From contig NZ_RBCJ01000003.1 of the NCBI RefSeq assembly GCF_003626755.1, positions 501,859 through 565,858 of the forward strand: a DNA stretch of 64,000 nucleotides, read 5' to 3'. The translations under genes and the position numbers were made by a program. Of this stretch, positions 12,630 through 47,781 are shown piece by piece (the stretch's first letter is position 1; each line of letters begins with the position of its first letter). The notes under the pieces were generated by a model. The model was not told where the DNA came from. It worked only from the letters and a program-made list of their open reading frames with translations, and made no database searches. This DNA is from Ulvibacterium marinum. Its GTDB lineage: Bacteria > Bacteroidota > Bacteroidia > Flavobacteriales > Flavobacteriaceae.

Positions 12630-12664
12630 ATGTTTATTTGTGAAACAAAAATAGAGCAGCACTT

Positions 12665-29224: not shown

Positions 29225-30472
29225 CTATTGAAAAAACAAAGAAAACGTGTGTATTCGCCCTTGGCGATTATAATCCAAACGAAACCCGTAAAGTTCGCAT
29301 ATTCTTTGATTTATGGCCAAACCCAGACCCAGGGATTCCTTTGATGCATTTCCCTTTTGAAAACGATTGAACAATTGCGCGGTTTCTATCAGCGATTCGT
29401 CCCCAGTATTGATGATCTCAAATTTCTCCTCGCTCAGAAACATTTCTATAGAGCCCCCTTCATGATTGTGTTGTACGGCATTTTTAATCAGGTTGGTGAA
29501 GAGGATGTCCGCTAAAACAAGATCACATTTAATCTTAACAGGATTCAAATTGGTTTTTACCTTTAGTTTTTTAAAGGTAATCATTTCTATCATGTTGTTC
29601 ATGATGTTCTCTATAAGGAGGCGAACATCAACACTGTCCAACCGCTTAAATTCCTGATTCTCTATTCTGGAAATCAAGGTCAGGGACTTTTCAATTTTTG
29701 ATAGTTTATTGGTTTCCTGATAAACGGCCTGTACCCATTGCAATTCTTTTGAATCAAGGTTTTGGCTTTCCAGGAGCAATACAATTTTGTTACGGATAAT
29801 GGCCAAAGGGGTCTGTATCTCGTGCGAAATGTTCTGGTTAAATTCCTTTAGATTTTGAAAATCTTTTTTCACTTGGTCTATCAATGATGTGACCACCTTG
29901 TTGAGCTCTTCAAATTCCAAAATATTGGAAGGTTCCAAATGAATAGATTGTTTTTGGGCAACATCGTAATTGTTAAGGGTCGTAAGGTTTTTAAAAAATG
30001 GACTCCACGCCCACCGGTATATTTTTTGGTTGATGAAAAACAATCCCGTTACCAAAACCAATAAGACCAATGTTGTGGTTACAAAAAGCAATAGGATCAA
30101 TTCATTGATTTCCAAAAGAACATGTTTCAACGAAATCCGCACATTTTGTGAATGGACTTGTGCGATGAACTCATAGGTGCGATAAGGGATGCGTTTATCG
30201 GCATAGGCCTCGTAGAACAAGGTATCCTTAAACTTGGGGGAAAATGCGATGTCCTCACTAACGGGTGTAGTCTCGAACAAATAGTTGGAAGCGGGAAATG
30301 TACCTTCTTCGACGAGGTGAAAGTTGATCCGTTCACTTTCATGAAGTAATATTTCCTCCACTTCGCTATTGACAATGTATTGGATGAGATAATAATCTAC
30401 CGTAACCATAATCGGAAAAAGGAAAGCCAGAAATATGAGGTAATATGTATTGGTCTTCCTAACTAAGTTCAT
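29225..30472 (-). CDS. Two-component sensor histidine kinase
   Basis: 415 residues. TM segments at about 11-33 and 125-147 bracket a periplasmic sensor of about 90 residues. The HisKA box NISHEIQTPLAIIRNKI holds the phospho-acceptor His217. The ATPase domain shows an N box (LFTNLIKNAVQHN) and a G2 box (SLGLGLAINQRI). No HAMP domain was recognised. It overlaps the response-regulator gene by four bases (ATGA), so the pair is translationally coupled. The signal is unknown. Confidence 0.93.
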   Translation of the reverse strand: MNLVRKTNTYYLIFLAFLFPIMVTVDYYLIQYIVNSEVEEILLHESERINFHLVEEGTFPASNYLFETTPVSEDIAFSPKFKDTLFYEAYADKRIPYRTYEFIAQVHSQNVRISLKHVLLEINELILLLFVTTTLVLLVLVTGLFFINQKIYRWAWSPFFKNLTTLNNYDVAQKQSIHLEPSNILEFEELNKVVTSLIDQVKKDFQNLKEFNQNISHEIQTPLAIIRNKIVLLLESQNLDSKELQWVQAVYQETNKLSKIEKSLTLISRIENQEFKRLDSVDVRLLIENIMNNMIEMITFKKLKVKTNLNPVKIKCDLVLADILFTNLIKNAVQHNHEGGSIEMFLSEEKFEIINTGDESLIETAQLFNRFQKGNASKESLGLGLAINQRICELYGFRLDYNRQGRIHTFSLFFQ

Positions 30473-31149
30473 TCGCGGTCGGTGAATTTATATCCTACAC
30501 TATAGATGGACTTAATATAGTCCCTCCCTCCCGATCCTGCAATTTTTTTCCTCAAATTGGCCAAATGGGTATAGATGAAATTAAAGGAATCGGCCATTTC
30601 AATATGGTCGCCCCAAAGGTGTTCCGCTATCGCCTCCTTGGTCAAAAGTCTATGCCGGTTCACCACAAAAAAGTGGAAAATGTCAAACTCTTTTTTGGTA
30701 AGGTTCAAAAGGTGATTGTTTACAAAGACTTCATGGCTGTCCGGCTTTATCTTGATTTCGTTAAAAAAGATTTCCCTACTTCCATTGTAAACTTTCCTTC
30801 GGTACAATGCTTTGATCCGGGCGTTCAGCTCGGCCAAGTAAAAAGGTTTGGTCAAATAATCGTCCGCGCCTATTTCCAATCCGTGTATTCTATCACCGAC
30901 CGCGTTCCTGGCAGAAATAATGATGATGCCCGCATCAATGTTTTCTTTCTTTACCTCCTTAATAATATCAAGCCCATTGCCATCAGGTAACCCAATATCG
31001 ACTATCAAAATGTCATACGGAAAATAACCTACCTTGCTATACGCCGATTTATAAGTATGGGCAATTTCACAAATGTTCCCCTCCACTTCCAAAAAGTTTT
31101 TGATGTCCTTCAGAAGTTCAATATTGTCCTCGATAACCAATATCTTCAT
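30469..31149 (-). CDS. OmpR-family response regulator
   Basis: 226 residues. The receiver domain has the acidic pair near residues 7-8, Asp51 in LIVDIGLPDG, and a Lys in DDYLTKPF. The C-terminal winged helix (residues about 130-225) includes LNLTKKEFDIFHFF and YIKSIYSVGYKF. It is the partner of the overlapping kinase. It lies 126 bp downstream of the V-ATPase K gene on the same strand with no clear terminator between, so read-through is possible. Confidence 0.95.
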   Translation of the reverse strand: MKILVIEDNIELLKDIKNFLEVEGNICEIAHTYKSAYSKVGYFPYDILIVDIGLPDGNGLDIIKEVKKENIDAGIIIISARNAVGDRIHGLEIGADDYLTKPFYLAELNARIKALYRRKVYNGSREIFFNEIKIKPDSHEVFVNNHLLNLTKKEFDIFHFFVVNRHRLLTKEAIAEHLWGDHIEMADSFNFIYTHLANLRKKIAGSGGRDYIKSIYSVGYKFTDRE

Positions 31150-31275: not shown

Positions 31276-31743
31276 TTAGGTGGTAGGCAACCCGGTCATG
31301 GTAAAGATCATGACGAAAAGGGCTACCGTTTCCACAATACCGATAATCATGATGTATTTTGCCGTATCATTGGCACCCGATGCAATAGCATCACAGGCCC
31401 GTGCCCCTGTCTTTCCCTGAAATATGGCCGAACCGGCCATGGCCGCCCCTGCAACCAGACCGATAATGATTTGCCAGAGGTAGGAGTCAGGTGCCAGGTC
31501 GGCATCGGCGATGGCGTTTTTGAGAATCATGCCATAGATAACCTGGGAAAGTGGGGCACCTACAAAAATGAGCAGGGCAGTAGCCGCCTTTTGTCCACTG
31601 GTTATCATTTTCTTCCAGGCCCCGATAGCGGCCATACCTGCTATTCCGGTTCCTATTGCAGACCCTATAGCGGCAATGCCCAAGGACATTCCCATATCGC
31701 CCAATCCTGTTACCGTCGTTGTTAAAATTGCCATATCTACCAT
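31276..31743 (-). CDS. ntpK: V/A-type ATP synthase subunit K (rotor ring)
   Basis: 155 residues with four membrane helices as two hairpins, the size of V-type K (proteolipid). The first hairpin ends with FVGAPLSQVIYGM and the second contains FQGKTGA and the carboxylate in GIVETVALFV. Ser66, Gln67, Gln109 and Glu138 line up with the residues that coordinate Na+ in Enterococcus NtpK (Thr64, Gln65, Gln110, Glu139). The ring probably binds Na+, although Gln is also found in some H+ rings. It is the last gene of the operon. AtpK is an equivalent name. Confidence 0.9.
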   Translation of the reverse strand: MVDMAILTTTVTGLGDMGMSLGIAAIGSAIGTGIAGMAAIGAWKKMITSGQKAATALLIFVGAPLSQVIYGMILKNAIADADLAPDSYLWQIIIGLVAGAAMAGSAIFQGKTGARACDAIASGANDTAKYIMIIGIVETVALFVMIFTMTGLPTT

Positions 31744-31774
31744 GATTTTATAGTTTAATAATTTTATGATTTTT

Positions 31775-33622
31775 TTATAATGTTGGGGCCGGTTCCATCT
31801 TTTCTGGTTCTACTACGCTTTTTTGGGAAACCAGTGTAAACGGTTTATAGGCTTCGCCGGAGAACTGTACACCAAGATGCCCTGCAAACTCCAGCATATT
31901 CAGGCGTATCCCATGTACCATAACCGCCATGAGGGCGAGGGCAATATTGAGTCCATGCCCCAAGAGCAATGCAATGGCCGCCATTAACAAATCCAAAAGC
32001 CCCATATCGGTAATCCCTTCGGGCAACACCATATTGTTGAAACTCGCCGCAACGGCTGTCGTTGCCATACCTACCGCAAAAAGTCGTACGTAGGAAACAA
32101 TGTCGGAGAATCCACTAATTAAGCTTAACGGCAAATTGGCCAATGAAACCAGCATGCTTTTCAAAAAGTTCTTGCTTTCGACCGAGAAAAGAGCAACCAA
32201 GGCTACTCCCGCTATAAATAGCCAAGGCCCCCATATGGGCATAGTCTTGCCCAGTACCAATTGCTCGGTCAAGAAGAACAACCCCCACACCAAAAAGATC
32301 CAACCTATTTCACTAAGGGCCCGTATGGAGTTGATAAACTGGGCAACGCGAATTCCATGGGCCACGGTTAGGTGAATGGCCCCTATCAGGAACGAGAGAT
32401 GCATCATAAAGGAAACATTATCGAACCCGAAGCTGGCAATTTCCTCAACGATCAAGTTCTTGAAAAAGGGAAGGGCGGCTATCTCCTCGGCACCAAAATA
32501 GGTGCCACTAAGTATTCCCCAAACAATGGTCGTGCCACTGAGAACATAGACCAAGATCTGCATCTGGGGCGTTAGTTTTTTACGAAGGAATAAGGTAACC
32601 AATAGAAAGATCAAGCCGTATCCTGCATCACCGACAAGCATGGCAAAAAATAGGGCAAAGGCCACCAAAAAATAAATGGAGACGTCGACTTCCTTGTATC
32701 CGGGTACGATATCTATAAATTTCATTACCGGGTTGATAATACTGATCCACTTGGGATTTTTGATGAAGACCGGTACCTCTTCCGGTTTTTCAGGCTCGGT
32801 GATGTGGTAACCCCAATGGTTCTCTTCCGCTTTTGCAACGAAATCATCTACGGAATCGCAAGGTATATATCCTTTAAGGTATTTCAACTTGCCATCAATG
32901 TCGCCCATACCTCCCAAGGTCTGTTGCATACCTAATCGGTCTTTCAACAATATGCGGTATTCCTCCAGCCAGTGCAGATGTTCGGTTTGATCATCCAAAA
33001 AACGTTCTACTTCGGTCAATTGCCGTTTTTTCCTTTTAATCTGTCGTTGTATGGACCCCAGAGATAATTTCGGGGGGACTACCTCTTTTTGATTTAATTT
33101 TTCATGTTCGTTTTGAGTAACCAATGCCGTCGGTATCTTCCCGTTCTGTTCAGGGAAAGTTACGACGGTATGGTCTTCCTTCACTTTGGGTATCATTGAT
33201 TTGCCCAAAAGATAGAGCCGAATGTAAATCCCTTTTTTCCTAAGGATCTCAAAGTCCTTTACGTTTACCTTTTCGCCCCAGGTTTTGTACCAATCCAACT
33301 GTAGGTAGAGCTCATCAAGTCGGTCTTTACATCTTCGCTTAATTTCTTCTGTCATCAATACGCGCTCTACAAGCTGTTTGGGATCCTTGGCTGGATATTT
33401 TACCCGGGTGATGGTATCTTTTTTCTTTTTTGAATGTTCCTTAAGGGAGGAAATTGCATTTTCAGTTTTATTGAGCGAAACCAATCGCCTTTCGGCAATT
33501 CCATTGGGCGATCGGTCAATTTCCTTGATGTCCATCACTCCGAGATTTCCGAGCACACGAATGGTTTCGTCCACGGAACGTGCGGTGGTAAAGAGCAGTA
33601 TTTCCTTCATCCGAACGATCAT
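31775..33622 (-). CDS. ntpI: V/A-type ATP synthase subunit I (stator membrane subunit)
   Basis: 615 residues. The N-terminal half is soluble with coiled-coil regions (LNKTENAISSLKEHSKKKKD, QIKRKKRQLTEVERFLDD). The C-terminal half from about residue 310 has some seven or eight membrane helices. SYVRLFAVGMATTAVAASF near residue 520 contains the Arg that faces the rotor carboxylate in this family. It carries the ion half-channels and anchors the peripheral stalk. Its start overlaps the D gene by four bases. Confidence 0.92.
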   Translation of the reverse strand: MIVRMKEILLFTTARSVDETIRVLGNLGVMDIKEIDRSPNGIAERRLVSLNKTENAISSLKEHSKKKKDTITRVKYPAKDPKQLVERVLMTEEIKRRCKDRLDELYLQLDWYKTWGEKVNVKDFEILRKKGIYIRLYLLGKSMIPKVKEDHTVVTFPEQNGKIPTALVTQNEHEKLNQKEVVPPKLSLGSIQRQIKRKKRQLTEVERFLDDQTEHLHWLEEYRILLKDRLGMQQTLGGMGDIDGKLKYLKGYIPCDSVDDFVAKAEENHWGYHITEPEKPEEVPVFIKNPKWISIINPVMKFIDIVPGYKEVDVSIYFLVAFALFFAMLVGDAGYGLIFLLVTLFLRKKLTPQMQILVYVLSGTTIVWGILSGTYFGAEEIAALPFFKNLIVEEIASFGFDNVSFMMHLSFLIGAIHLTVAHGIRVAQFINSIRALSEIGWIFLVWGLFFLTEQLVLGKTMPIWGPWLFIAGVALVALFSVESKNFLKSMLVSLANLPLSLISGFSDIVSYVRLFAVGMATTAVAASFNNMVLPEGITDMGLLDLLMAAIALLLGHGLNIALALMAVMVHGIRLNMLEFAGHLGVQFSGEAYKPFTLVSQKSVVEPEKMEPAPTL

Positions 33623-34230
33623 GCCATGGCCTTTTTTTCCTGTTTCTTCTTTTTTACCAGTTTGGCACAGCCTATGGCCAGTCGCTCTACATCGCCCAGA
33701 TAGATTTCAATTTTTCGAATATTCTCTTGGGTTTCCGGTATAAACACTTCCTTTAATGCATTTTTCATCCGGCGGGCCTCGGCAAGTTCTTCCTTGAGCA
33801 ATTCCAAATTTCGTTCTTCGATTTCCACCAAGGTCCTGTTGGTCTTTTGCTCCCGTATCGCCTCTAGGGCGGCATCGATCCAAAGTGGCGTATTGAAAAG
33901 ATCTACCTCCACTTCCTTAAACGCGATGTCCTTAAACGTCTCTATGGTTACTCCAGCGATTTCCCGTTTTTCGGTGACAACTTCATTGACTTTTACCAAT
34001 TCGGACAGGTCAATGGTCTCCTCGGCCATCACGGCCACCCATTTTTTTGTTTCCGCATCAGTCGTCTCAATGGTCCGTTTCAGCCGAATAATATTATTTT
34101 CCGTAGTCTGTACTACCTCCTTCAACTGCTGTTCCTTCATCTCAAAGACGGGTAGGGCCGTGTTGTATTCCCTCAGCTCTATTTTCAAGGCGGCCAGGGT
34201 GTTTTTGTTCATTAAGATCTTATCCGCCAT
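33619..34230 (-). CDS. ntpD: V/A-type ATP synthase subunit D (central stalk)
   Basis: 203 residues, mostly helical, matching the D-subunit coiled coil. LMNKNTLAALKIELREYNTALPVFEMKEQQLKEVV is the first long helix and the C-terminal ALKEVFIPETQENIRKIEIYLGDVERLAIGCAKLVKKKK is the second, the region with the F-V-I-P motif typical of D. D is the rotating shaft inside the A3B3 head. It starts 2 bases after the DUF2764 stop. Confidence 0.9.
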   Translation of the reverse strand: MADKILMNKNTLAALKIELREYNTALPVFEMKEQQLKEVVQTTENNIIRLKRTIETTDAETKKWVAVMAEETIDLSELVKVNEVVTEKREIAGVTIETFKDIAFKEVEVDLFNTPLWIDAALEAIREQKTNRTLVEIEERNLELLKEELAEARRMKNALKEVFIPETQENIRKIEIYLGDVERLAIGCAKLVKKKKQEKKAMA

Positions 34231-34232
34231 GT

Positions 34233-34802
34233 TCAGTCCTTCTTTGTAATGTGTAAGAAATTGTCGAACCCTACTTTTTGATCAAAACTCCACCATCGCA
34301 ATAAGAGCAGCAGCTTCAGTTTATAGATGATCAAGGCCCCAAAATCGGTATAATGTCCAATGGAAAGCCCGTCAAGTTTGTCCCATTGCATCTTTAAAAT
34401 TTGAATTTCCTCTTCCAGCGGAGTACCCAGTGTTAAGGGTAGCGGTTGCTTTTTGGCCATGGTGGCATCCACCCTTTTTTTTCGGGAGACGCGAAGTTGT
34501 TCGATATCACTTTTAAGCCTATGGACATAAGTGGAAAAAGCCGATAGAATTTTGTTTTTACTGCGTTGGAAAATTTCCTTATGGATATCCTCCAATGTAA
34601 TTTGTTGTAACGTACGGGATGCCCTTGAGGTTAAATAGTTACCGGCCTCTTCGTCCAAAATAGCAATGATGCTTTTTTCCTCCCCTGAAGGCCCTGCATA
34701 TTTTCTTAGGATGGAAAACACCCTAAGGCGTTCCTCATCGGAGTCTTGAAAATACAGATGCGGGAAGCTGCTCATTACATATTCCAGGTTTCCGGTAATC
34801 AT
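34233..34802 (-). CDS. DUF2764-type V-ATPase-associated protein (probable C-like subunit)
   Basis: 189 residues starting MITGNLEYVMSSFPHLYF, the opening of the DUF2764 family encoded inside V-ATPase operons of Bacteroidota and Chlamydiae. The rest is helical and charged, and no catalytic motif is seen. Since no C gene (the socket between the stalk and the membrane ring) exists in the operon, it may fill that role. This is an inference from position. It overlaps the E gene by four bases. Confidence 0.8.
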   Translation of the reverse strand: MITGNLEYVMSSFPHLYFQDSDEERLRVFSILRKYAGPSGEEKSIIAILDEEAGNYLTSRASRTLQQITLEDIHKEIFQRSKNKILSAFSTYVHRLKSDIEQLRVSRKKRVDATMAKKQPLPLTLGTPLEEEIQILKMQWDKLDGLSIGHYTDFGALIIYKLKLLLLLRWWSFDQKVGFDNFLHITKKD

Positions 34803-35398
34803 ACCTCCGATTCATTTTTAAGGATTTGAACCCATTTTGGACTAAGATGAACGTTTAAAAGTTCGGCGACTTCCTCGGACGAAATATGGTAACTCCATCC
34901 TTGATCCGTTTTGGTTATAGAGAACCCATTGAGAATAGTGGCATCCTTGCTGATAGAAGCCAGTGTATCCGACGTCTGCAAACGTTTCTGGATTCGGTCT
35001 ACCAGCTTTGCCTCGGCATTCTCCGGAAGCTTTAGGGTAACTCCACTACCTACGTTTTCGATGACTTTTAGGACGGCTTCCTCCAAAAGATCCGGAGTAA
35101 GGGCAGTTTCTATTTCCCTTTCCAGTACAGCCCCAAGAAGTTTCAACAAATCGTTGCGTACCGAAACGGTAAGATCCCTTGCCGCTTGCTTAAGGGCACC
35201 TTCCCCTTTGTTGAGCGTGGCTTGGGCCTCTTTCTTGGCGTCTTCCAGAAGTTCTTCTTTTTTGGCTTCCGCATCCTTTATGATTTTTTGGGCCTGTGCG
35301 CGTGCCTTCTCCACGATATCCATCGCTTCGTTGTCCGCTGCCTTGATAGCTTCCGATTTTAGGGTGGCAATCAGTTTATCCAAGGTTTTCTCACTCAT
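34799..35398 (-). CDS. ntpE: V/A-type ATP synthase subunit E (peripheral stalk)
   Basis: 199 residues. The N-terminal 100 residues form one long Ala/Lys/Glu-rich helix (EKARAQAQKIIKDAEAKKEELLEDAKKEAQ) typical of the peripheral stalk, followed by a globular C-terminal domain. No G/H gene is present, so the helix partner of E is not identified. It overlaps the B gene by eight bases. Confidence 0.88.
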   Translation of the reverse strand: MSEKTLDKLIATLKSEAIKAADNEAMDIVEKARAQAQKIIKDAEAKKEELLEDAKKEAQATLNKGEGALKQAARDLTVSVRNDLLKLLGAVLEREIETALTPDLLEEAVLKVIENVGSGVTLKLPENAEAKLVDRIQKRLQTSDTLASISKDATILNGFSITKTDQGWSYHISSEEVAELLNVHLSPKWVQILKNESEV

Positions 35399-36722
35399 GG
35401 GTCATCTCTTTTAATATTTTGAACTTCCCTTTTTCCGGCCAATACGCCTCGATCAGCTTGGAGGATAGCCCTACCTCTTCCTTTTTGAAATGTTGGGCAA
35501 GGGTATCCCAACACAGGTCTAGGGCATCTTCCAGTTCCAAGTAGCGGAAGGGATCCATCAATTCGGTTTGGAAGGTCTTTCGGTAATCCAACAACCGCAA
35601 CGAATAGTCATCCTTCACCGAACCGAATTTCTGGGCCTTTACCCGTTCTTCGGCTTCTGAAAGCAACCGCGCCATAGCATTCATGATACTTCTATGATCC
35701 GGACGGGTCCGGTCGTTTACTTGTTGCTTCAAACGGCTCAATGATCCGAACAGTTCCAGATATCCGTCCTTCATATAGAATTGTCCTTCGGTAATATATC
35801 CGGTGTTGTCCGGTACGGGATGGGTAACATCGTCCATTGTGGTTACCCCGAGGATGGTCAAACTTCCTGCACCCTCAATATCAGCCGCTTTTTCGTAACG
35901 ACTGGCCAACTGGGAATACAGGTCGCCCGGGTAACCTTGATTGGCCGGAATCTGATCCTGGGCATTGGCTACTTGCCGCAAATAATCGGACCATTGGGTC
36001 ATATCCGATAGCAGTACAAAAACATTTTTACCCTGTAACGCAAATTGCTCGGCTACGGCCAGGGCCAAATCGGGTACCATAAGGCCTTCTACTATAGAAT
36101 CCCTATGCGTATGGACAAACATGATGGTCTTGTTCTTACTTCCGGCCTCTTCAATACGCTGTCTGAAGTAATGGAACTCATCATATTTGAGTCCCACCCC
36201 ACCGATTATGATTACATCCGCATCGGTCTGGGTAGCGATATTGGCCAATAGGCGGTTGTAGGGTTCGCCTGCCTTGGCAAAAATGGGTATCTTTTGGGAA
36301 CGTACCAAGGTGTTGAATACATCGATCATGGGTACCCCTGTACGAATCATATCCTTGGGGATGAGCCTTTTTACTGGATTAATGGAGGGTCCCGCCACCC
36401 GAATCATATCGGACAGTAGTTCAGGACCTCCGTCTATGGGTTGGCCATTGCCCGAATAGACACGCCCCAACATATCATCGGAAAATCCTACTTGGACCGG
36501 TTTTCCCAGGAAACGGATCTTACAATCGGTAGAGACCCCGAATCCACCTCCGAACAGTTGAAGGGTCACCTGATCGCCATCCAATGCAATGACCTGAGCA
36601 AATGCCTTTTGTCCGTTGGGATAGATTACCTCTGCCAATTCCTTATTGTGTACACCCTTGGCCTTAATGCCCAGAATGGCGCGCCCAATACTGTCTATAT
36701 TCTCATACGTTTTCTGCAACAT
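35391..36722 (-). CDS. ntpB: V/A-type ATP synthase subunit B (non-catalytic)
   Basis: 443 residues. GFSDDMLGRVYSGNGQPIDGGPEL, RTGVPMIDVFNTLVRSQKIPIFAKAGEPYN and DMTQWSDYLRQVANAQDQIPANQGYPGDLYSQLASRYEKA are B-subunit signatures. The place of the P-loop is FAKAGEPYNRL, without GKT, as expected of the non-catalytic subunit. It overlaps the A gene by 20 bases. Confidence 0.96.
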   Translation of the reverse strand: MLQKTYENIDSIGRAILGIKAKGVHNKELAEVIYPNGQKAFAQVIALDGDQVTLQLFGGGFGVSTDCKIRFLGKPVQVGFSDDMLGRVYSGNGQPIDGGPELLSDMIRVAGPSINPVKRLIPKDMIRTGVPMIDVFNTLVRSQKIPIFAKAGEPYNRLLANIATQTDADVIIIGGVGLKYDEFHYFRQRIEEAGSKNKTIMFVHTHRDSIVEGLMVPDLALAVAEQFALQGKNVFVLLSDMTQWSDYLRQVANAQDQIPANQGYPGDLYSQLASRYEKAADIEGAGSLTILGVTTMDDVTHPVPDNTGYITEGQFYMKDGYLELFGSLSRLKQQVNDRTRPDHRSIMNAMARLLSEAEERVKAQKFGSVKDDYSLRLLDYRKTFQTELMDPFRYLELEDALDLCWDTLAQHFKKEEVGLSSKLIEAYWPEKGKFKILKEMTHE

Positions 36723-38451
36723 GTTCCCTTTGTTTGACCAAATTCACTAGTTTCATTTTTTGTTTTTCGAAGCCCTCCTCATCGGGTTTCATATAGTTCC
36801 AGTCAAGAAAAGCTAGTCGGATGAAATTAAAATGCGACCGTATCCCTTCCTTACCTTTAATACCTACCGTTGCGTCTATGATTTCCTTCACCATATCGAA
36901 CATGGCCCGCAACCGATCGGGAGTGGTTACCCCATCCACCTCATGAAAACTGTTCTGTTGCAGGAAGACGGCATCGAGCAATTCGGCCTTTTGGTGACGG
37001 ATATAGGCTTCGTCCGTGATACCCTTTTCGCCCATCAGGATAATATTGGAAGCTATGGTCTTACCATCCCGTAACAGCTCCAATAAAAAGTTCACCTCTT
37101 CCCGATTCAGCAACGAGGGATATTTGGAATTACTATCAATACGGTCTATGGCGGGATATTTCCGTGCATCGGACAATGCCCGGGATAACCCCCAAAAAGC
37201 CCCCGTACTCAACAAAGTGGCCTGCGTTACCGGTTCATCGAAGTTCCCGCCCGCTGGAGAAACTGTTCCGATAATACTTAAGGATCCGGTTTTTCCATCG
37301 GGTAGCAATTCAATTCCCGCGCGATCGTAGAAAGCGGAGATCAATGTGGAAATATACATGGGGAAGGCTTCGGGACCTGGAATTTCCTCTTTTCGTCCCG
37401 AGGTCTCACGGAGTGCTTGTGCCCATCGGGAAGTAGAATCAGCTAGGATAAGCACATTGAGCCCTTGTTTGCGGTAGTATTCCCCCACGGTTGTGGCCAT
37501 GTAGACAGATGCTTCCCTGGCGGCCACGGGCATGGATGAGGTATTCCCCACAATATAGGTACGGTCCATCAAGGACTTTCCCGTTCGTGGATCGATCAGT
37601 TCAGGGAAGTCTTTAAAGACCTCCACAGCTTCCCCGGCGCGTTCGCCGCAAGCTGCGATGATAACCACATCGGCCTGTGAATGCCGGGCCAAACTATGTT
37701 GCAATACCGTCTTGCCTGCTCCAAAAGGTCCTGGATTGCATGCCGTACCGCCATAGGCAATGGGAAAAAGGGCATCTAGAATCCGGATTCCCGTGGGCAT
37801 TGGATCTATGGGGACGGAACGCTCATTAAAGGGCATAGGTTTTTTTACGGGCCACTCGAATACCATTTTTAGTTCCACGCTTTTGCCCACGGCGTCCTTT
37901 ATAACGGCTATGGGCTCATCTACGGTATACTCTCCCTCGGGAGCTATTTGCTCGATCGTGTGATCCCCCTGTATGGAAAAGGGGACAAAAATCTTGTGTT
38001 CGAACAGTTTTTCAGGAACGGAACCCAGTACGGTACCGCCCGTTACCAAATCCCCTTTTTGCACTGAAGGGGTAAAGTGCCATTTAACCGTGATATCCAA
38101 GGGCTCTACTACGAGCCCCCGCTCCAAAAACCATTCTTTCTTGGCCAATTCGTACAAGGGGTTTTGCAGACCATCCGTTACGGAACCTAAAATGCCGGGC
38201 CCCAGTTTTACGGCCAGGGGAAGACCAGAAAATTCCACAAGGTTGCCTACTTTCATCCAGCCGGTATCTTCAAAGACCTGTAGATATACTATATCATTGG
38301 GTTTCACATCAATGACCTCCGATTTGAGCCGTTTGCCGTCCTCAATGATAATATAGGCTACCTCACCGTTCATGACAGATCCCTCCGTAGTTAGGGCCCC
38401 AACAAGGGATTCGTTGACGCTGACTACTTTTCCTTTTGCTTTTTGCATCAT
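36703..38451 (-). CDS. ntpA: V/A-type ATP synthase subunit A (catalytic)
   Basis: 582 residues, normal for A. The P-loop is GPFGAGKT at residues 241-248; CGERAGEAVEVFKDFPEL and ADSTSRWAQALRETSGRKEEIPGPEAFPMYISTLISAFYDRAG are catalytic-site blocks. The non-homologous insert of A subunits precedes the P-loop at about 115-200. It is the first ATPase gene, 13 bp after the UspA/TPR gene. Confidence 0.97.
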   Translation of the reverse strand: MMQKAKGKVVSVNESLVGALTTEGSVMNGEVAYIIIEDGKRLKSEVIDVKPNDIVYLQVFEDTGWMKVGNLVEFSGLPLAVKLGPGILGSVTDGLQNPLYELAKKEWFLERGLVVEPLDITVKWHFTPSVQKGDLVTGGTVLGSVPEKLFEHKIFVPFSIQGDHTIEQIAPEGEYTVDEPIAVIKDAVGKSVELKMVFEWPVKKPMPFNERSVPIDPMPTGIRILDALFPIAYGGTACNPGPFGAGKTVLQHSLARHSQADVVIIAACGERAGEAVEVFKDFPELIDPRTGKSLMDRTYIVGNTSSMPVAAREASVYMATTVGEYYRKQGLNVLILADSTSRWAQALRETSGRKEEIPGPEAFPMYISTLISAFYDRAGIELLPDGKTGSLSIIGTVSPAGGNFDEPVTQATLLSTGAFWGLSRALSDARKYPAIDRIDSNSKYPSLLNREEVNFLLELLRDGKTIASNIILMGEKGITDEAYIRHQKAELLDAVFLQQNSFHEVDGVTTPDRLRAMFDMVKEIIDATVGIKGKEGIRSHFNFIRLAFLDWNYMKPDEEGFEKQKMKLVNLVKQREHVAENV

Positions 38452-38464
38452 GTATGGATATTTT

Positions 38465-39607
38465 TTAGCTACCGCGAAGTTTTCGGACTTCTTCCTCTAT
38501 TTTTTGATACCAGATCTTGTCCATAATTTCCTTGGCATTTCTTCTGTACATCCTGGCCTTCTCCGGTCGGTCCAGTTTTTCATAAACCTTCGCAAGCCCT
38601 TTATATGCTGGTACGTGCATATCATTAATGCTTAAACAGGCCTTAAACTGACCAATGGCTTCTTCATGGAAACCATCCTCCATCAACTGCAGGCCGGTAC
38701 TGTGAAGTTTTTCGATGTCCTTGATATGCGTTTCCAGTTGTAGGGAGATGACATCCTCGGATTTTAGGGTGAGGAAGGAACAGGGCACTTCCCTTACCAC
38801 CTTTTCGGTAACGCTGCCCATGATCATTCGGTTAAGCCCCGTCCTTCCTGCAGTACCCATGATGAGCAGATCGATCATTTTTTTGGAAATGGCACTCAAT
38901 ATCTCCTTGGCGGGATTACCTTTAGGGGTTTCTTTTGTCCAATTAAGATTTGTTAGGTCGAACCCGTTTAAAAAGGAATCGAATTCCTCCTGATGTAGGG
39001 TATATCTAAGCTCATTTTCCTGTTCCTTGTCCTTTTCCGATGTAAACCAGATGGAGCCTTGCAATTCGCATACCGCGAGAATGGTGAGTTCCGACTTGAA
39101 CCTACGGGCCATGGTAATGGCGTTTTTAAGAGCCCTTTTGGAAGATTCGGAAAAATCAACGGGACAAAGTATATGACGTACATTGAGCAGGATTCCTTCC
39201 TTGATGACGAAAACGGGTTTTTCGCTTTTTTGGATAATACGCTCCGTAGTGGTACCCAATTGAAAGGTATCCCCCTTTTTGCTTTCACCGGAACCCGTAA
39301 GAATTACATTGGCGTTTATATCCACCGCGGCCCTTACGATAGCCTCGTGGGGAGAACCAAACGCCAGTAAGGGGTTATCCAAGTCCACCCCCTCATTCTC
39401 AATACGTTGTGCCGTTTCTTCCAATTTTGTCATGGCTGTTTCATTTAGCAAGGCCTTGACCTTCTTATTTATGATATCATCCGGCAGTACATGAATGGGA
39501 ACAATTTTCGATTCGAATATTTTTGCAAGTTCAATTGCGCTATGCACCAAATTTTGGGAGGATTTACTAAAATCCTGCGCCAATAAAATCTTTTCCAAAA
39601 GCTTCAT
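38465..39607 (-). CDS. Tandem universal stress protein with C-terminal TPR
   Basis: 380 residues. Two UspA domains lie at about 1-140 (KILLAQDFSKSSQNLVHSAIELAKIF to EKPVFVIKEG) and 144-275 (HILCPVDFSESSKRALKNAITMARRF to VPCSFLTLKSE). The second has the ATP-binding pattern GTAGRTGLNRMIMGSVTEKVV; the first reads GSGESKKGDTFQLGTTTERII. Residues about 300-370 form a TPR-like pair (EEAIGQFKACLSINDMHVPAYKGLAKVYEKLDRPEKARMYRRNA). It is the first gene of the V-ATPase operon (13 bp to ntpA), so it may sense adenylate charge. That role is inferred. Confidence 0.9.
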   Translation of the reverse strand: MKLLEKILLAQDFSKSSQNLVHSAIELAKIFESKIVPIHVLPDDIINKKVKALLNETAMTKLEETAQRIENEGVDLDNPLLAFGSPHEAIVRAAVDINANVILTGSGESKKGDTFQLGTTTERIIQKSEKPVFVIKEGILLNVRHILCPVDFSESSKRALKNAITMARRFKSELTILAVCELQGSIWFTSEKDKEQENELRYTLHQEEFDSFLNGFDLTNLNWTKETPKGNPAKEILSAISKKMIDLLIMGTAGRTGLNRMIMGSVTEKVVREVPCSFLTLKSEDVISLQLETHIKDIEKLHSTGLQLMEDGFHEEAIGQFKACLSINDMHVPAYKGLAKVYEKLDRPEKARMYRRNAKEIMDKIWYQKIEEEVRKLRGS

Positions 39608-40041
39608 AAAACAACATTTTAATGTGCAGGTTCTCGCTGATTACGGACCAGAATTATGACTTAGAATTGATGGTTGCAAATCCGATTTTGGAACCATCCC
39701 CTGAAATTTGTATAAAGCTAGTATGCAATTCTTCAGGGAAACTTAAGAAATGGGCCGAAGGAAGAGGTTCAAGTAGAAAAAATATGGACAAGATCTAAAG
39801 GGTAGTTTGTACAACGGGCGGGCGGGATTATTGGTATATCCGGCCCCATATAGTTTAGGAGTATTTGAAACAAATATTTATAGGCTGGGTCCCTTTCTAA
39901 AGTTTTGCTTTAGATTCTGTTATTAAATTTAAAGATACAAACAAAAATAAGGCTGCGAATAGTGTTTAAGAATGATGTTGTTTTAGAAACTCTAAGATAG
40001 TCTTATCCTAAAATAGTTCAGCAATTAAAATAGCTTGAAAA
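39608..40041. promoter_or_regulatory. Divergent control region between V-ATPase and SDH operons
   Basis: 434 bp without a gene, separating two divergent UspA-led operons. It holds the 15-bp palindrome TATTTGAAACAAATA at 39862-39876, and a weak plus-strand box TAAATTTA at 39924-39931 with TTG only 16 bp upstream. A small inverted repeat (ACATTTTAATGT) lies next to the minus-strand start at about 39614-39625. No strong promoter was found on the minus strand. Confidence 0.5.
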
Positions 40042-40836
40042 ATGAATAAGATTCTTGTCCCCGTCGATTTTTCGAATACCTCATCCAATGCCCTGTCCTA
40101 TGCCACGGAATTGTTTAGGGGATCCGCCACAGAAATTACCGTTTTACATGTATACGGTACAAAGTCTACCGCACTTCTAATGAAGAACATTAATAGTGTG
40201 CTGGAGAAGGATGCCAAGCGCAGAATGGATGAACTGTTGGAAAACGTTCAAAAAAAGCATCCCGATTTAACGCTAAAGACCAAAATCATTAAGAATTATG
40301 CCGTTTCTGCCATAGCATCACTAGGGGATAGTGGTCATTATGATTATATTGTGATGGGTACCAAAGGGGCGAGCGGACTCAAGGAGGTTTTTTTGGGAAG
40401 TGTTGCGGGCGGTGTCATTTCCAAGACCTCGGCCCCCGTAATAGTAGTTCCGGCCGGGTATAGTTTCCGTTCACTTGAGGAAATTGTCTTTGCGGTCAGT
40501 GATGATCCTTTTTCCGATGCTAATCTATTGGAACCTTTGCGAAAGATCGCCACCATGCATCAAAGCAAGGTAAAAGTGCTACATATCGCGGATAAGAAAA
40601 CACCTCAAATTGAAAAGGCCTTGACCGCTATCGAAGACTTGAATCCATCCGTAGACTATGCATTTGGTACAGGTGATACCAATAAGGACTTGAACGATTA
40701 CATGATGAAGGATTTTGCCGGTTTGCTTTGCCTTATCCGAACAAAGAAAGGCTTCATGCATCGACTTCTCAACGAAAGTGTTACCTTAAAGCAGACTTTT
40801 AACAGTCCGGTACCGTTGCTTATCCTACATGATTAG
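40042..40836 (+). CDS. Universal stress protein (two-domain), first gene of the SDH operon
   Basis: 264 residues. The first UspA domain (KILVPVDFSNTSSNALSYATELF) ends with VMGTKGASGLKEVFLGSVAGGVISKTSAPVIVVP, which carries the G-2x-G-9x-G(S/T) ATP-binding pattern. The second (residues about 150-264) is degenerate and lacks that pattern. The SdhC-type gene starts 7 bp after its stop, so the two are cotranscribed. A link between stress or energy sensing and respiration is suggested by this order, not proved. Confidence 0.9.
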   Translation: MNKILVPVDFSNTSSNALSYATELFRGSATEITVLHVYGTKSTALLMKNINSVLEKDAKRRMDELLENVQKKHPDLTLKTKIIKNYAVSAIASLGDSGHYDYIVMGTKGASGLKEVFLGSVAGGVISKTSAPVIVVPAGYSFRSLEEIVFAVSDDPFSDANLLEPLRKIATMHQSKVKVLHIADKKTPQIEKALTAIEDLNPSVDYAFGTGDTNKDLNDYMMKDFAGLLCLIRTKKGFMHRLLNESVTLKQTFNSPVPLLILHD

Positions 40837-40843
40837 ATCTTAG

Positions 40844-41497
40844 ATGTTCCTTAGAAAAACCATAATTGCCCTTACGGGCCTGTTCTTATGTATCTTTTTG
40901 ATTGTACACCTCTCCGCAAACAGCATTTTGGTGCTTCCCGAAGAAATGGCAAGAGGCCTGTACAACTCGTATTCGACCACCTTAAGGGAAAGCCCGCTGA
41001 TTAAGATTGTGGCCTACGTACTATACTTGTCTATTGTGCTGCATGTTATCTATGCCCTATTGATTGTTTTGAACAACCGAAAGGCAAAATCAAAGCGCTA
41101 CTTGCTAAACCGTAATAGGGAGAATAGCAGTTGGACCTCCCAGAACATGGGACTTTTGGGCATCATGATACTGTTGTTCATCGTGGTACATCTCGCCAAC
41201 TTTTGGGCCCGTATCAAGCTGGGCCTAGGTGAAAACGTAGCTCTGGATGCCAATGGCCACGTAGATGTTTATGAGGTAACCTACAGTCTTTTTCGAAATA
41301 TCTATTACGTAGTATTCTATACAATTTTGATGATTCCCCTTGGGTTACATCTCAACCACGGATTGAAAAGTGCTTTTAAGACCTTGGGTTTTTACCATAA
41401 AAAGGGACTTCGAGTATTGGCGAAGATTTCATTGGTCTATGCTGCCGTCATGGCCGTGGGGTTTGGTTTGATTCCCTTCATTGTATTCTTAAAATAA
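40844..41497 (+). CDS. sdhC: Succinate dehydrogenase/fumarate reductase cytochrome b subunit
   Basis: 217 residues with five membrane helices, the fused two-haem type of Bacteroidota, Wolinella and Bacillus (class B). His in [22 protein letters not shown] and LHLNHG are placed to bind two haems b. It anchors the A and B subunits and exchanges electrons with menaquinone. It lies between the UspA gene and sdhA, 8 bp from the latter. Confidence 0.94.
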
Positions 41498-41505
41498 ATT
41501 TTCAG

Positions 41506-43413
41506 ATGCTGAATTCAAAAATTCCTGAAGGACCCTTGGAGAACAAATGGAGCAGCTATCAGACCAAATCCCAGCTGATTAATCCGGCCAACAAGAAAAA
41601 ACTGAATGTCATCGTGGTCGGTTCCGGGTTGGCAGGAGCCGGTGCCGCGGCCACTTTAGCGGAATTGGGCTATGACGTTACATGTTTTTGCTATCAGGAT
41701 TCGGCACGTAGGGCCCATTCCGTGGCGGCTCAAGGCGGTATTAATGCCGCAAAAAACTATCAGCACGATGGTGATAGTGTTTGGCGAATGTTCCATGATA
41801 CATTAAAGGGAGGCGATTTTAGGTCACGGGAGGCCAATGTATACCGCTTGGCGGAATTGTCGGCCCCGCTTATTGACCATTATGTACAACAAGGGGTACC
41901 TTTTGCCCGTGAATATGGCGGGGTACTTGCCAATCGCAGTTTTGGTGGTGTTCAGGTGCAGCGTACCTTTTATGCCCGTGGACAAACGGGGCAGCAATTG
42001 CTTTTGGCCGCCTATTCACAATTGTATAAAATGAAACGTGCTCAAAAAGTGGCTATGTTTCCCCGCCATGAGATGTTGGATTTGGTGGTAATCGATGGAA
42101 AGGCAAAGGGCATCATAGCAAGGGATTTGATCACTGGTCAATTGAAACGCTTTGCCGCAGATTCAGTTGTGTTGGCTACAGGGGGCTACTCCAGGGTCTT
42201 TCGGCTCTCTACCTTGGCTATTGGCTGCAATGGCTCGGCGATATGGAAAGCCCATAAGCGAGGGGCTTATTTTGCCGCACCCAGTTTTACGCAGGTGCAC
42301 CCTACTGCGTTGCCCCAGACCAGCGAGGCACAGTCCAAGCTTACCCTAATGTCCGAATCCCTACGAAATGATGGGCGTATTTGGGTTCCCAAAAAGAAAG
42401 ATGATGACCGAAGAGCCAATGCCATTCCTGAAGAAGAAAGGGACTATTACCTGGAACGGCGGTATCCGAGCTTTGGAAACCTTGCGCCGAGGGACATTGC
42501 CTCAAGGGCAGCAAAGGAGCGTATCGATGCCGGTTATGGTGTAGGGCCTTTCAAAAATGCGGTTTATCTGGATTTTAAACATGCGGTTGAACGTTTCGGG
42601 ATTCAAACTATCCAGGATAGGTATGGTAATCTTTTTAAAATGTACAAGAAGATTACCGGAGTGGATGCCTATCAAGAACCTATGCAGATTTCACCTGCGG
42701 CCCACTTCTCCATGGGCGGACTATGGGTGGATTATGAATTGATGACCACCATCCCCGGGCTCTATGCCATTGGCGAATGTAACTTTTCAGATCATGGAGC
42801 CAACCGTCTGGGGGCCAATTCGTTATTACAGGCCAGTATTGACGGATATTTTGTACTGCCGAACACCATCAACAATTATTTGGCCGATGAGTTGAAGGAA
42901 GACCATCCTACTACAGATCATCCAGAATTTGACAAGGCACAGAAAGAAGTAGAACAACAAATCACAAAGCTTTTGACTGTAAGAGGCGACAAAACCGTGG
43001 ATCACTTCCATAGAGAATTGGGCAAGGTTATGTGGCAGGAATGTGCCATGAGCAGAAATAAGGAGGGGCTTGGGAATGCTATCTCAAAGATCAAGGAAAT
43101 TAGAGATGCCTTTTGGAACGAAGTCAATGTTACCGGGGGACAACAGGAAATGAATACTGAGTTGGAAAAAGCATTGCGTTTGGCCGATTTTTTGGAGTTG
43201 GGGCTCCTTATGTGCACCGATGCCTTTCAGCGGGAAGAGTCCTGCGGTGCCCATTTCAGGGAAGAATATCAGACCGATGAAGGTGAGGCTATGCGTAACG
43301 ATAAGACGCATGCGTATGTATCGGCCTGGGCCTATGACAACGGAAATTTTCAGTTGCATAAGGAACCCTTGGTATTTGAAAACGTGCAACCGACCGTGCG
43401 AAGCTATAAATAA
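41506..43413 (+). CDS. sdhA: Succinate dehydrogenase/fumarate reductase flavoprotein subunit
   Basis: 635 residues. The FAD-binding [10 protein letters not shown] is at residues 39-48, the covalent-FAD His71 lies in [15 protein letters not shown], and substrate-site motifs include [20 protein letters not shown] and [26 protein letters not shown]. It oxidises succinate, or in reverse reduces fumarate. Operon order C-A-B is as in class B complexes. Direction of use cannot be told from sequence. Confidence 0.96.
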
Positions 43414-43460
43414 AGCATTGAAGAACATCAGAAAACTAAGCACTACAACGGAATACTACG

Positions 43461-44207
43461 ATGAAGATAGTTTTTAAAATCTGGAGGCAGGTAAATTCTA
43501 AGAGCCAAGGGGGTTTTGAGACGTATGAGGTAGACGGATTAACGGAGGATATGTCTTTTTTGGAAGCTTTGGATTATCTCAACGAACGTTTGGTACAGCG
43601 CAATGAGAAGGTCATTGCCTACGAGTATGATTGTCGTGAAGGTATCTGCGGACAATGCGGGGTGTTCATCAACGGAAGGGCCCATGGTCCGCATGATAAT
43701 ATCACCACTTGCCAGCTACATATGCGAAGTTTTAAGGATGGGGAGACCGTAGTCGTGGAACCTTGGAGGGCAGCGGCATTTCCGGTTATAAAAGACCTGG
43801 TGGTCGACCGTTCCGCTTTTGACAGAATTATTGAGCAGGGAGGATATATTAGCGCGAGAACGGGAACCGCTGCAGAGGCAAATGCTATCCTTGTGGGGAA
43901 AGAAGTAGTGGATAGAGCTATGGACGCGGCGGCCTGTATTGGTTGTGGGGCTTGCGTCGCTACCTGTAAAAATGCCTCGGCCGCACTCTTTACAGCGGCA
44001 AAAATCAATCATTTGAACAGCTTGCCACAGGGGAAGCCAGAAGCTTCCAATCGGGTTTTGGAAATGACCCGTCAGATGGAACTCGAGGGTTTTGGGAGCT
44101 GTACCTTTACCGGTGCTTGTGAGGTGGAATGTCCAGAGGAGATTCCCATGATCAATATTGCCGAGATGAACGCAAGAAGGGTGAAGGCGAAATGGTTGGG
44201 TAAATGA
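43461..44207 (+). CDS. sdhB: Succinate dehydrogenase/fumarate reductase iron-sulfur subunit
   Basis: 248 residues. The [2Fe-2S] ligands are Cys58, Cys63, Cys66 and Cys84 (CREGICGQCGVFINGRAH). The C-terminal domain has CIGCGACVATCK (Cys159, 162, 165, 169) and CTFTGACEVECPEEIPM for the [4Fe-4S] and [3Fe-4S] clusters. It passes electrons from FAD to the quinone site. It starts 47 bp after sdhA and ends the operon. Confidence 0.96.
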   Translation: MKIVFKIWRQVNSKSQGGFETYEVDGLTEDMSFLEALDYLNERLVQRNEKVIAYEYDCREGICGQCGVFINGRAHGPHDNITTCQLHMRSFKDGETVVVEPWRAAAFPVIKDLVVDRSAFDRIIEQGGYISARTGTAAEANAILVGKEVVDRAMDAAACIGCGACVATCKNASAALFTAAKINHLNSLPQGKPEASNRVLEMTRQMELEGFGSCTFTGACEVECPEEIPMINIAEMNARRVKAKWLGK

Positions 44208-45827: not shown

Positions 45828-46113
45828 TTAATCGACAACCGAATCTATCCATTCGTTCGCTTTTGAAACCCTTGCCAGAGCCATCACGGAACCGTATTTG
45901 ATTCTACGGTTCAATGCCCCGGAAACTATACCAACCAAAATGTGTTTGCCATGGTGGTACATAAACACTCCGCCACCGCTATCCCCTTTGGAACCTCCAA
46001 TTTCTAATTCCAAAGGAATCGGTGAACCAAAATGGTTGAGTTCCCGATTTTCCGGATAATCAAAATCGCACACCGTAACGCTGTTGGTAAATTCCCTGTT
46101 CTCAAAAATGTTC
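45828..46113 (-). pseudogene. Trypsin-like serine protease, C-terminal remnant cut by an IS element
   Basis: The minus-strand frame holds GSKGDSGGGVFMYHHGKHILVGIVSGA, with the GDSGG nucleophile motif of chymotrypsin-fold proteases, and ends ARVSKANEWIDSVVD. The parts carrying the His and Asp of the triad are missing. At 46113 the frame runs into the terminal repeat of the IS1182-type element. On the far side of the element the same frame reaches a stop after about 20 codons and shows no protease sequence, so the 5' part appears lost as well. Confidence 0.75.
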
Positions 46114-47781
46114 GTGGCTGTTGCACAACTCTGATATTCATCAATTCTTGCTTTCATAAGCGTCGGGAAATCGGTAACTTATGGTATGCAAGGCAGAAAA
46201 AGCTACACCGAAAAACTGTTCCTCAGCTTCAGGCTGTCGGACCGTGTTCCCGAGGACAACCTTTACAGAAGGCTCCGCGAGACGCTCGACCTGAGTTTTC
46301 TTTACAGGGACACGAAGGAACTCTATGGCAGTACGGGCAACCCGTCCATTGACCCCGTTGTCTTCTTCAAGCTGTTGATCGCGGGATACCTCGAGAACAT
46401 CACCTCCGACCGAAAACTGGCGGAACACTGTAGCATGCGGATGGACGTGCTCTACTTTCTGGGCTATGACCTGGACGAGGAGCTGCCATGGCACTCGACC
46501 ATCAGTAGGACGAGGCAACTTTATCCGGCATCCCTTTTCGAGAAGTTGTTCAACAAGGTATTCGCCCTGTGCGTCGACAGCGGGATGGTTTCCGGCCACA
46601 CCCAGGCGGTGGATTCGGCCCCGATAAAGGCCAACGCATCCATGGAAAGCGTAGTGCCGAAAATGCCCGCAGCCCCCATGGGGGACCACTTGAAAAAAGT
46701 GTCGGAAGAGAACGGGGGAACACAGCAAAGGCAAGCGAAGACCATGTCCCCCGCACATATCACCGCTCCCGAGCACCATCTCAGGCGCGTGGAAAAGCAC
46801 CACCAAAACCTTCGGGACAGTCCGGTGCAACTGGTCGGCGCCCGCCATAAAAAGGCACGCCTGCTGAGCAACAAGACGCACTACAACCCCCATGACCCGG
46901 ATGCCCGCATATCGGTAAAACCGGGCAAGGCCAGAAAGCTCAACTACCGTTGCAGCATGGCGGTGGATACCGCGGAAGGGGTCATTTCACATATCCAGGC
47001 GGACTTTGCCGACGGCAGGGACAGCCAGTACCTGACCGATATCAGCCTGCGGATCTAGAACCGTTTAAGGAAGAACGAGCTGATAATGACGGATTTCCTC
47101 GCGGACGCAGGTTATTCCAATGGCGCCAACTACGATTTTCTCGAACAAAGGAAGGCTACCGGATGGATACCCGTTTTCGGGAAATACAAACCCAAGATAG
47201 ACGGTTTTCCCTACAACAGGGAAAAGGACGAATACAATTGCCCGATGAACAGGCCAATACCTTTCAAGGGATTCCGTACCAACCGGGACGGTAGCGTACT
47301 GAAATGCTATTGGGCGGCACCGAAAGACTGCAAGGCCTGCCCCATGAAATCCCAATGTGTGCCGAATACAAAATGTAAAAAAATCACCAGAACGATCTAT
47401 GATGAACAATACTTGAGGGCATACGCCCGACAGCACAGTGAAAGGGGCAAACGAATGAAAAAGCTGAGACAAAGTACGGTGGAGCCCGTATTCGGTAGTT
47501 TGACCCAGTTCTACGGCCTGAGAAAAATAGGCGTATTGGGCAAGGCCGGTGCGCACAAGGTCATGCTCATGGCGGCAATCGCCTTCAACCTGAAAAAGTA
47601 CCTCAAGAAAGGGGGAAGGAAGCCCTCCCTTGGCATTATAAGGACCATTATAAATACCTTACAAGGCAACCTGACCATTTTTCTCCTGCAAACCCAACCG
47701 AGACCGGCTCTCACTAAGGTTCCGTAAAAACAGCCGACTAGGGTCGATATCATACGTACAGAGCACTTCTGCAACGGCCAC
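46114..47781 (+). mobile_element. IS1182-family insertion sequence
   Basis: The element of about 1.67 kb is bounded by imperfect terminal inverted repeats: GTGGCTGTTGCACAAC at 46114-46129 and, reverse-complemented, GTGGCCGTTGCAGAAG at the right end (47766-47781). GTTC directly repeated at 46110-46113 and 47782-47785 may be the target duplication. The base composition is visibly richer in G and C than the neighbourhood. It carries one transposase gene with an in-frame stop. Confidence 0.75.
46186..47727 (+). pseudogene. IS1182-type transposase interrupted by an in-frame TAG
   Basis: The frame runs from ATG at 46186 to TAG at 47056-47058, then continues in the same frame to the stop at 47725-47727, which would be 513 residues. 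The N-terminal DUF772-type domain is NPSIDPVVFFKLLIAGYLENITSDRKLAEHCSMR. DDE elements are VDSAPIKANAS, LADAGYSNG after the stop, and STVEPVFGSL with the likely Glu. One C-to-T change (CAG to TAG) would explain the break. A start at 47086 would give only the C-terminal 213 residues. Without readthrough it cannot move alone. Confidence 0.85.

Follow-up and report, generated by a model that had tools for sequence, protein, structure and literature searches.

PhoB/OmpR-type promoters carry direct repeats spaced 11 bp apart just before the -10/-7 element. For TeaD-TeaABC of Halomonas elongata and UspC-KdpD of Escherichia coli, the available part of one report describes the association of a universal stress protein (Usp) with a membrane transport system, of which the Usp is a proposed regulator (PMC5549992). 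For Bacteroides fragilis, the available part of another report describes an accessory V-type ATPase with sodium-ligand residues, which stands beside an F-type enzyme in a Na+-NQR background and whose operon has a second gene called DUF2764 (PMC10790697). Here we describe a locus of Ulvibacterium marinum that can be set against each of these systems. It lies within a stretch of 64,000 nucleotides (G000:C8:501859-565858, G000 being the genome; hereafter the window), in which the operon of a V/A-type ATPase and the operon of a succinate dehydrogenase (SDH)/fumarate reductase point away from a common control region, each led by a Usp gene. We consider it probable that this locus serves marine Flavobacteriaceae as an accessory island for energy stress, in which a response regulator (RR) and its histidine kinase (HK) activate the ATPase and fumarate reductase operons via paired operators.

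Like the B. fragilis operon, as far as the excerpts describe it, the ATPase of the window is accessory, carries sodium-ligand residues, has few extra subunits and is accompanied by Na+-NQR. A close A subunit was found in two of 395 genomes of the phylum, own genome included, and another A-subunit type, 45-47% identical to that of the window, in six others, B. fragilis not among them (even sample, threshold 1e-60). Three loci of this other type (L069, L070, L073) show the order ntpE, a 274-280-aa protein, ntpA, and no Usp, RR/HK or SDH gene was labelled in the six loci, some of which lie on short contigs. The island and the TeaD and UspC systems, in their published excerpts, share the linkage of a Usp protein to a membrane transport system; the latter concern other transporters, whereas in the island tandem Usp proteins lead two operons. 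The island shares repeat spacing and repeat position with PhoB/OmpR-type promoters, but its CTWAAG half-sites are mirrored on two divergent promoters and form a single target region in G000 (up to two mismatches). The SDH belongs to the same family and has the same subunit set as the b558-type SdhCAB/FrdCAB of Bacteroidota (TIGR02046), from which it stands apart as an additional isoform that is coupled to an ATPase island. The initial annotation knew of no described regulatory system of this kind, and no Usp-led ATPase/SDH unit was found in the titles and abstract openings returned by searches of the open-licence literature.

The minus-strand operon UspTPR-ntpA-ntpB-ntpE-189aa-ntpD-ntpI-ntpK (39607 to 31276) and the plus-strand operon Usp264-sdhC-sdhA-sdhB (40042-44207) diverge, the names UspTPR and Usp264 being coined in this analysis. 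A region of 434 bp separates the two Usp genes, and the gaps to the following genes measure 13 bp (UspTPR to ntpA) and 7 bp (Usp264 to sdhC). These positions, gene families and linkages had already been given by the initial annotation and are all borne out by the coordinates and by Pfam and NCBIfam. Its operon extent holds for the genes that it listed, and missed the continuation of the minus-strand unit beyond 31276 into the genes of the RR and then the HK (31149 to 29225); a terminator scan called no terminator-like site on the minus strand in the 126-bp gap between ntpK and the RR gene. The features of the locus, in window coordinates, are the following.

38465..39607, minus strand: UspTPR, 380 aa, tandem Usp protein with a helical C-terminal extension; first gene of the ATPase operon; Pfam Usp over two stretches.
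36703..38451, minus strand: ntpA, catalytic subunit A of the V/A-type ATPase; Pfam, and NCBIfam PRK04192 over cut-off.
35391..36722, minus strand: ntpB, subunit B of the V/A-type ATPase; NCBIfam PRK02118 over cut-off.
34799..35398, minus strand: ntpE, stator subunit E; NCBIfam PRK01558, E 2e-30, below cut-off.
34233..34802, minus strand: all-helical protein of 189 aa between ntpE and ntpD; no Pfam or NCBIfam match.
33619..34230, minus strand: ntpD, central stalk subunit D; Pfam ATP-synt_D over cut-off, NCBIfam equivalog below cut-off.
31775..33622, minus strand: ntpI, membrane subunit I/a; NCBIfam V-type subunit I model, E 5e-119, below cut-off.
31276..31743, minus strand: ntpK, duplicated rotor subunit; NCBIfam PRK06649 over cut-off.
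30469..31149, minus strand: OmpR-family RR, predicted regulator of both operons; Response_reg and Trans_reg_C.
29225..30472, minus strand: HK; HisKA and HATPase_c only.
39714..39747, minus strand: predicted operator/promoter of the ATPase operon; CTTAAG-N5-CTGAAG with TAGCTTT 10 bp on, one mismatch to the pattern.
39897..39930, plus strand: predicted operator/promoter of the SDH operon; CTAAAG-N5-CTTTAG with TAAATTT 10 bp on, one mismatch to the pattern.
40042..40836, plus strand: Usp264, 264 aa, tandem Usp protein; first gene of the SDH operon; Pfam Usp.
40844..41497, plus strand: sdhC, cytochrome b558-type membrane anchor; TIGR02046 over cut-off.
41506..43413, plus strand: sdhA, second SDH/fumarate reductase isoform; Pfam, separate clade with support 100/100.
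43461..44207, plus strand: sdhB, iron-sulfur subunit; Pfam Fer2_3 and Fer4.

A profile scan of genome contigs with an A-subunit alignment returned 35 loci, of which 34 were kept (L075-L108); L109 was dropped because it holds only a weak ATPase match. The A subunits of the 34 loci are 77-96% identical to that of the window. All loci belong to Bacteroidota, mostly to Flavobacteriaceae; L099, L100 and L105 are assigned by their record titles to Cyclobacteriaceae, Cytophagales and Saprospiraceae, respectively, and three loci come from genomes that also occur in another sample (L075 is G002, L079 is G359, L085 is G021). A UspTPR homolog stands directly before ntpA on the same strand in 32 of the 34 loci, with a gap of at most 35 bp in 26 of these 32, and Usp264 is divergent from the ATPase operon in 31, a short open reading frame (ORF) being called between them in L107. 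The sdhC gene directly follows Usp264 in 13 of the 34 loci (gap 0-7 bp in seven, 64-223 bp in six), and SDH genes of any placement lie in the fetched flanks of 21. In seven loci (L091-L095, L097, L098), sdhB and sdhA of the second isoform are found past ntpK in convergent orientation, and the fetched locus gave no match to sdhC; the products may possibly share the housekeeping anchor or form a soluble enzyme. Remnants of 36 codons persist in two loci: of sdhC, behind Usp264, in L075, and of sdhB in L090.

The Usp-ATPase/SDH neighbourhood thus recurs across genera, and a restriction to this one strain is rejected, since the 34 loci with a close A subunit lie in other Bacteroidota. Because of this recurrence we regard the arrangement as more than chance: it is a real, conserved gene island. 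The proposed tight linkage of Usp genes to both complexes survives in part. The Usp pair is tied to the ATPase, as its divergent position in 31 of 34 loci indicates, and is not tied to the SDH, given that sdhC stands behind Usp264 in only 13; a fixed Usp-SDH unit is rejected, as Usp264 remains by the ATPase where the SDH is gone or lies elsewhere. In addition, sdhC-sdhA diverges from ntpA without any Usp gene in the Saprospiraceae locus L105, and L104 has the ATPase without Usp or SDH genes, so that Usp proteins are common but not obligatory partners of the island.

Within the control region, we observed two conserved blocks in mirrored orientation (alignment of 19 of 32 regions). Each is composed of two CTWAAG half-sites 11 bp apart (CTWAAG-N5-CTWAAG), with TAnnTTT exactly 10 bp after the second. 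TAnnTTTG is the Bacteroidota -7 element. At this +10 position, all 40 sites of 20 regions carry at least four of the five fixed TAnnTTT letters, compared to 0-3 of 40 at eight other offsets. Allowing up to two mismatches, the composite site matches twice in G000, both times inside the 434-bp region, and the reversed-pattern control gives 0 matches. The two best composite sites fall in the divergent region in 16 of 16 genomes searched; among the 57 matches in these genomes, 32 lie in divergent regions and 25 elsewhere. This longer pattern was used because the short core alone is uninformative, the relaxed core motif giving 34 matches in G000 versus 63 for its reversed control. A scan for sigma-70-type promoters stayed at shuffle level, with 27 found and 28.5 expected. 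As near-identical mirrored sites lie on both promoters, the two operons are predicted to rise together. The view of the two operons as one unit is upheld by the conserved neighbourhood and the mirrored promoter sites, and is corrected in its regulator, which is most likely the two-component system encoded behind ntpK.

Of the 34 loci, 27 extend past ntpK: 15 of them encode the RR with its kinase, inserted genes having shifted the two away in L084 and L107, and 12 lack RR/HK. The remaining seven loci end too early. The site pair occurs in 15 of 15 RR/HK loci, as well as in the window, and in 0 of the 12 loci without; for 11 of these 12, a genome search at 1e-40 found no RR anywhere in the genome. 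The seven early-ending loci served as a forward test of the link between site and RR. L076, L106 and L108 carry the site pair, and their genomes hold an RR at 84-85%; L096 and L100 lack the pair, and no RR was found in their genomes at 1e-40. Across the 34 loci, regulator and pair occur together in 18 (plus the window) and are both absent in 14, which leaves L080 and L099. In the ntpA tree, both traits were scored for 31 rows, and all of these agree (17 both, 14 neither); no more than 3 changes are needed per trait. Furthermore, Flavivirga rizhaonensis (G784) encodes a paralogous RR in L193 (251 bits, versus 409 for the island's own RR), and triple 11-bp-spaced CTWAAG repeats stand just before its gene, an independent hint that this RR family may read CTWAAG repeats. 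Two of the 25 outside matches of the composite pattern, both in G784, adjoin this paralogous RR-HK, and one in G785 (L194) has no gene recognised as relevant nearby. The triple repeats at L193:10407-10434 and 12649-12676 flank the paralogous pair at about 9 kb from the island's HK.

The ATPase operon encodes subunits A, B, D, E, I and K together, and no protein of the operon matched an F or G model of Pfam or NCBIfam. The conserved 189-aa protein gives a weak profile match (probability 65%) to the ~275-aa protein that other V-type operons of Bacteroidota encode, and no PDB fold match at E 0.001; it is possibly a reduced form of that protein. The same genome encodes the beta subunit of an F-type ATP synthase (over the atpD cut-off) and NqrF of Na+-NQR (over cut-off). 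Both the V/A-type ATPase and the SDH isoform of the island are accessory, as G000 has a housekeeping SDH and an F-type ATP synthase besides. The sodium ligands of Enterococcus hirae NtpK, as given in the available part of PMC2359735, are Thr64, Gln65, Gln110, Glu139 and Tyr68. Mapped by motif onto these numbers, the counterparts in the window NtpK are S66, Q67, Q109, E138 and Y70, which are invariant in 28 of 28 sequences; PDB sequence and profile searches with the window NtpK did not reach E. hirae NtpK. These residues suggest that the second rotary ATPase most likely moves sodium ions.

The SdhC anchor, the flavin-binding (FAD) subunit and the iron-sulfur subunit are all present and make up a complex II of the b558 family. 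The housekeeping SdhA of G000 is 65% and 56% identical to the window SdhA over two matched parts, and an SdhA tree of 33 rows separates the window type from the housekeeping type with support of 100/100. The window isoform occurs elsewhere in G002 and G020, at 85% identity and not linked to an ATPase. In G002 this sister copy stands behind DcuA_DcuB, Lyase_1 and asparaginase genes (Pfam), and the same order was read in G020 from matching N-termini. The Lyase_1 gene of G002 belongs to the aspartase/fumarase superfamily, and we take it to encode an aspartase. A Lyase_1 gene is also found behind sdhAB in L097. The position of the sister copies in this cluster favours fumarate reduction, and we postulate that the second complex II would most likely serve as a menaquinol:fumarate reductase when the cell lacks oxygen or energy; the low-oxygen or low-energy use raised in the initial annotation is plausible on the same ground. 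The best PDB sequence match, 9lay, is named 'succinate dehydrogenase or fumarate reductase'.

Further metabolic genes adjoin the island in other genomes. A phosphoenolpyruvate carboxylase gene (Pfam) lies 27 bp behind the HK gene in L077 (19223-21961), and ORFs of 831-913 aa stand behind the HK in L078, L082, L083 and L102, that of L077 alone being assigned by Pfam. Such a carboxylase would supply oxaloacetate for the reductive succinate branch. In Winogradskyella (L093:4347-7076), a pyruvate phosphate dikinase gene (Pfam) is convergent to Usp264, and 909-aa ORFs of L094, L095, L097, L098 and L103 are taken as the same enzyme by length and place. On the SDH/Usp side, beyond sdhB or Usp264, loci of Croceivirga, Croceitalea and Flagellimonas (L077, L078, L079, L082, L102) carry a Na+/Pi cotransporter family gene (L077, L079 and L082; Pfam), carbonic anhydrase genes (of the LCIB type in L078 and L082 and of the Pro_CA type in L102), or both. 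In the window itself, 46186-47727 holds two adjoining plus-strand ORFs that resemble the parts of a split transposase, with a short protease-like ORF beside them at 45828-46157; none of this kind was called at the matching place in G002 (L064).

The ATP-binding motif of Usp proteins is G-2x-G-9x-G-S/T. Domain 2 of UspTPR retains it intact (as G-2x-G-9x-G-S) in 33 of 33 sequences, and in domain 1 the second motif glycine is replaced, by Glu in 30 of 33. In Usp264, the motif of domain 1 is invariant in 32 of 32 sequences and domain 2 is degenerate. The structural model of UspTPR (predicted local distance difference test, pLDDT, 81.5) is weak at residues 254-266, which cover part of the domain-2 motif, and at 283-291. 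Its C-terminal helical extension (residues ~286-378) may be called 'TPR-like' as a reading of the model helices; Pfam gave no tetratricopeptide repeat (TPR) match in UspTPR. The nearest solved folds are tandem Usp proteins, including the ATP complex 3ab8, with TeaD (3hgm) lower in the list. Judged by their motifs, the Usp proteins probably bind ATP, and adenylate sensing is plausible given that these motifs are invariant. Full-length UspTPR is present in five of 395 genomes of the order, own genome included (even sample, threshold 1e-50), and in three of the five (G037, G042, G253) it lies in stretches without a labelled ATPase gene. The G042 homolog adjoins ferritin-like and GreA genes. In G037 (L066:1376-7090), the free-standing homolog (51%) lies ~2 kb from a membrane pyrophosphatase gene.

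In the mechanism that we favour, the RR-HK pair encoded behind ntpK would bind the paired operators and activate, rather than repress, the two divergent promoters. One operon would provide a second rotary ATPase, most likely moving sodium ions, and the other a second complex II, most likely reducing fumarate with menaquinol under shortage of oxygen or energy. Together with the genome's Na+-NQR, the two complexes would keep the cell in redox balance and uphold its sodium gradient. The Usp proteins at the head of the operons, which probably bind ATP, may tune or scaffold the complex encoded next to them or the kinase. Among the mechanisms considered, the best support is for co-regulation by the two-component system linked to the island.

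Several observations weigh against this explanation. Each site of the window carries one mismatch to the composite pattern, and the 25 matches outside divergent regions compare with 14 for the reversed control in the 16 genomes, so that a few other targets are possible. L080, a metagenome-assembled genome whose contig ends inside the gene of the 189-aa protein, has the site pair, but the search of its genome gave no RR; L099 is without the pair, and the one RR of its genome is at 52%; and L105 is likewise without the pair, with a genome that encodes two RRs, at 52% and at 47%. CTWAAG repeats were absent from the two stretches with ~52% RRs that were examined (L191, L192). The tree contains two supported independent pairs of changes (three on all branches; sign test p 0.5), and as only two are supported, the co-occurrence of RR and site pair is suggestive and we claim no significance for it. 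In 13 of the 34 loci, several of them on short contigs, the fetched flanks hold no SDH genes. The ATPase and the SDH isoform are separable: G021 keeps the ATPase and showed only housekeeping SdhA, and G020 has the SDH isoform without a V-type A/B match in a search that matched G000, G002, G021 and G359. Sequence does not tell in which direction complex II runs.

Control could instead reside in the Usp proteins, with ATP-bound Usp gating the ATPase and the SDH directly and the two-component system being secondary. The invariant ATP motifs (33 of 33 UspTPR and 32 of 32 Usp264 sequences) would fit such a role, as would the retention of the Usp pair where RR/HK and operators are missing, in loci of Winogradskyella and Confluentibacter; TeaD and UspC-KdpD are precedents in the available part of PMC5549992. 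Yet L105 keeps the divergent sdhC-sdhA and ntpA without Usp, L104 keeps the ATPase without Usp, and the UspTPR homologs of G037 and G042 stand apart from any labelled ATPase gene, and we consider this explanation unlikely. Slightly less likely still is a reading in which an ordinary aerobic SDH isoform makes up the second complex II and the ATPase works as an ATP synthase, their linkage reflecting joint transfer or co-expression for growth instead of stress. The family models used cannot separate SDH from fumarate reductase within the b558 family, and 9lay is named as either; however, a housekeeping SDH and an F-type ATP synthase are already in the genome, and the sister SdhA copies in the Dcu/lyase/asparaginase cluster and the Lyase_1 gene behind sdhAB in L097 speak for the fumarate side. 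A chance neighbourhood, in which an accessory ATPase landed by SDH and Usp genes without functional coupling, would agree with the rare and patchy occurrence (two of 395 phylum genomes, own included) and with the SDH remnants of L075 and L090, but we deem it very improbable in view of the recurrence in several genera, the conserved twin operators, and two separate SDH placements beside the ATPase, behind Usp264 or, in seven loci, beyond ntpK.

On the reading of a two-component system that controls an accessory island, a more far-reaching version can be put forward, though only tentatively and as a doubtful one: the locus may be a patchy, self-contained low-energy module in which one dedicated two-component system jointly switches on a sodium-pumping rotary ATPase and a second fumarate reductase, and the ATP-binding Usp proteins that lead the operons sense adenylates locally, or serve as scaffolds, and so set the activity of each complex. 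The combination of an accessory ATPase of the sodium type with a second complex II of the fumarate type, two Usp proteins and a linked regulator whose operator is precisely predicted lends itself to concrete tests, and named isolates such as Croceitalea dokdonensis and Flagellimonas meridianipacifica carry the locus. If the module is real, transcriptional and allosteric control would be joined in one locus.

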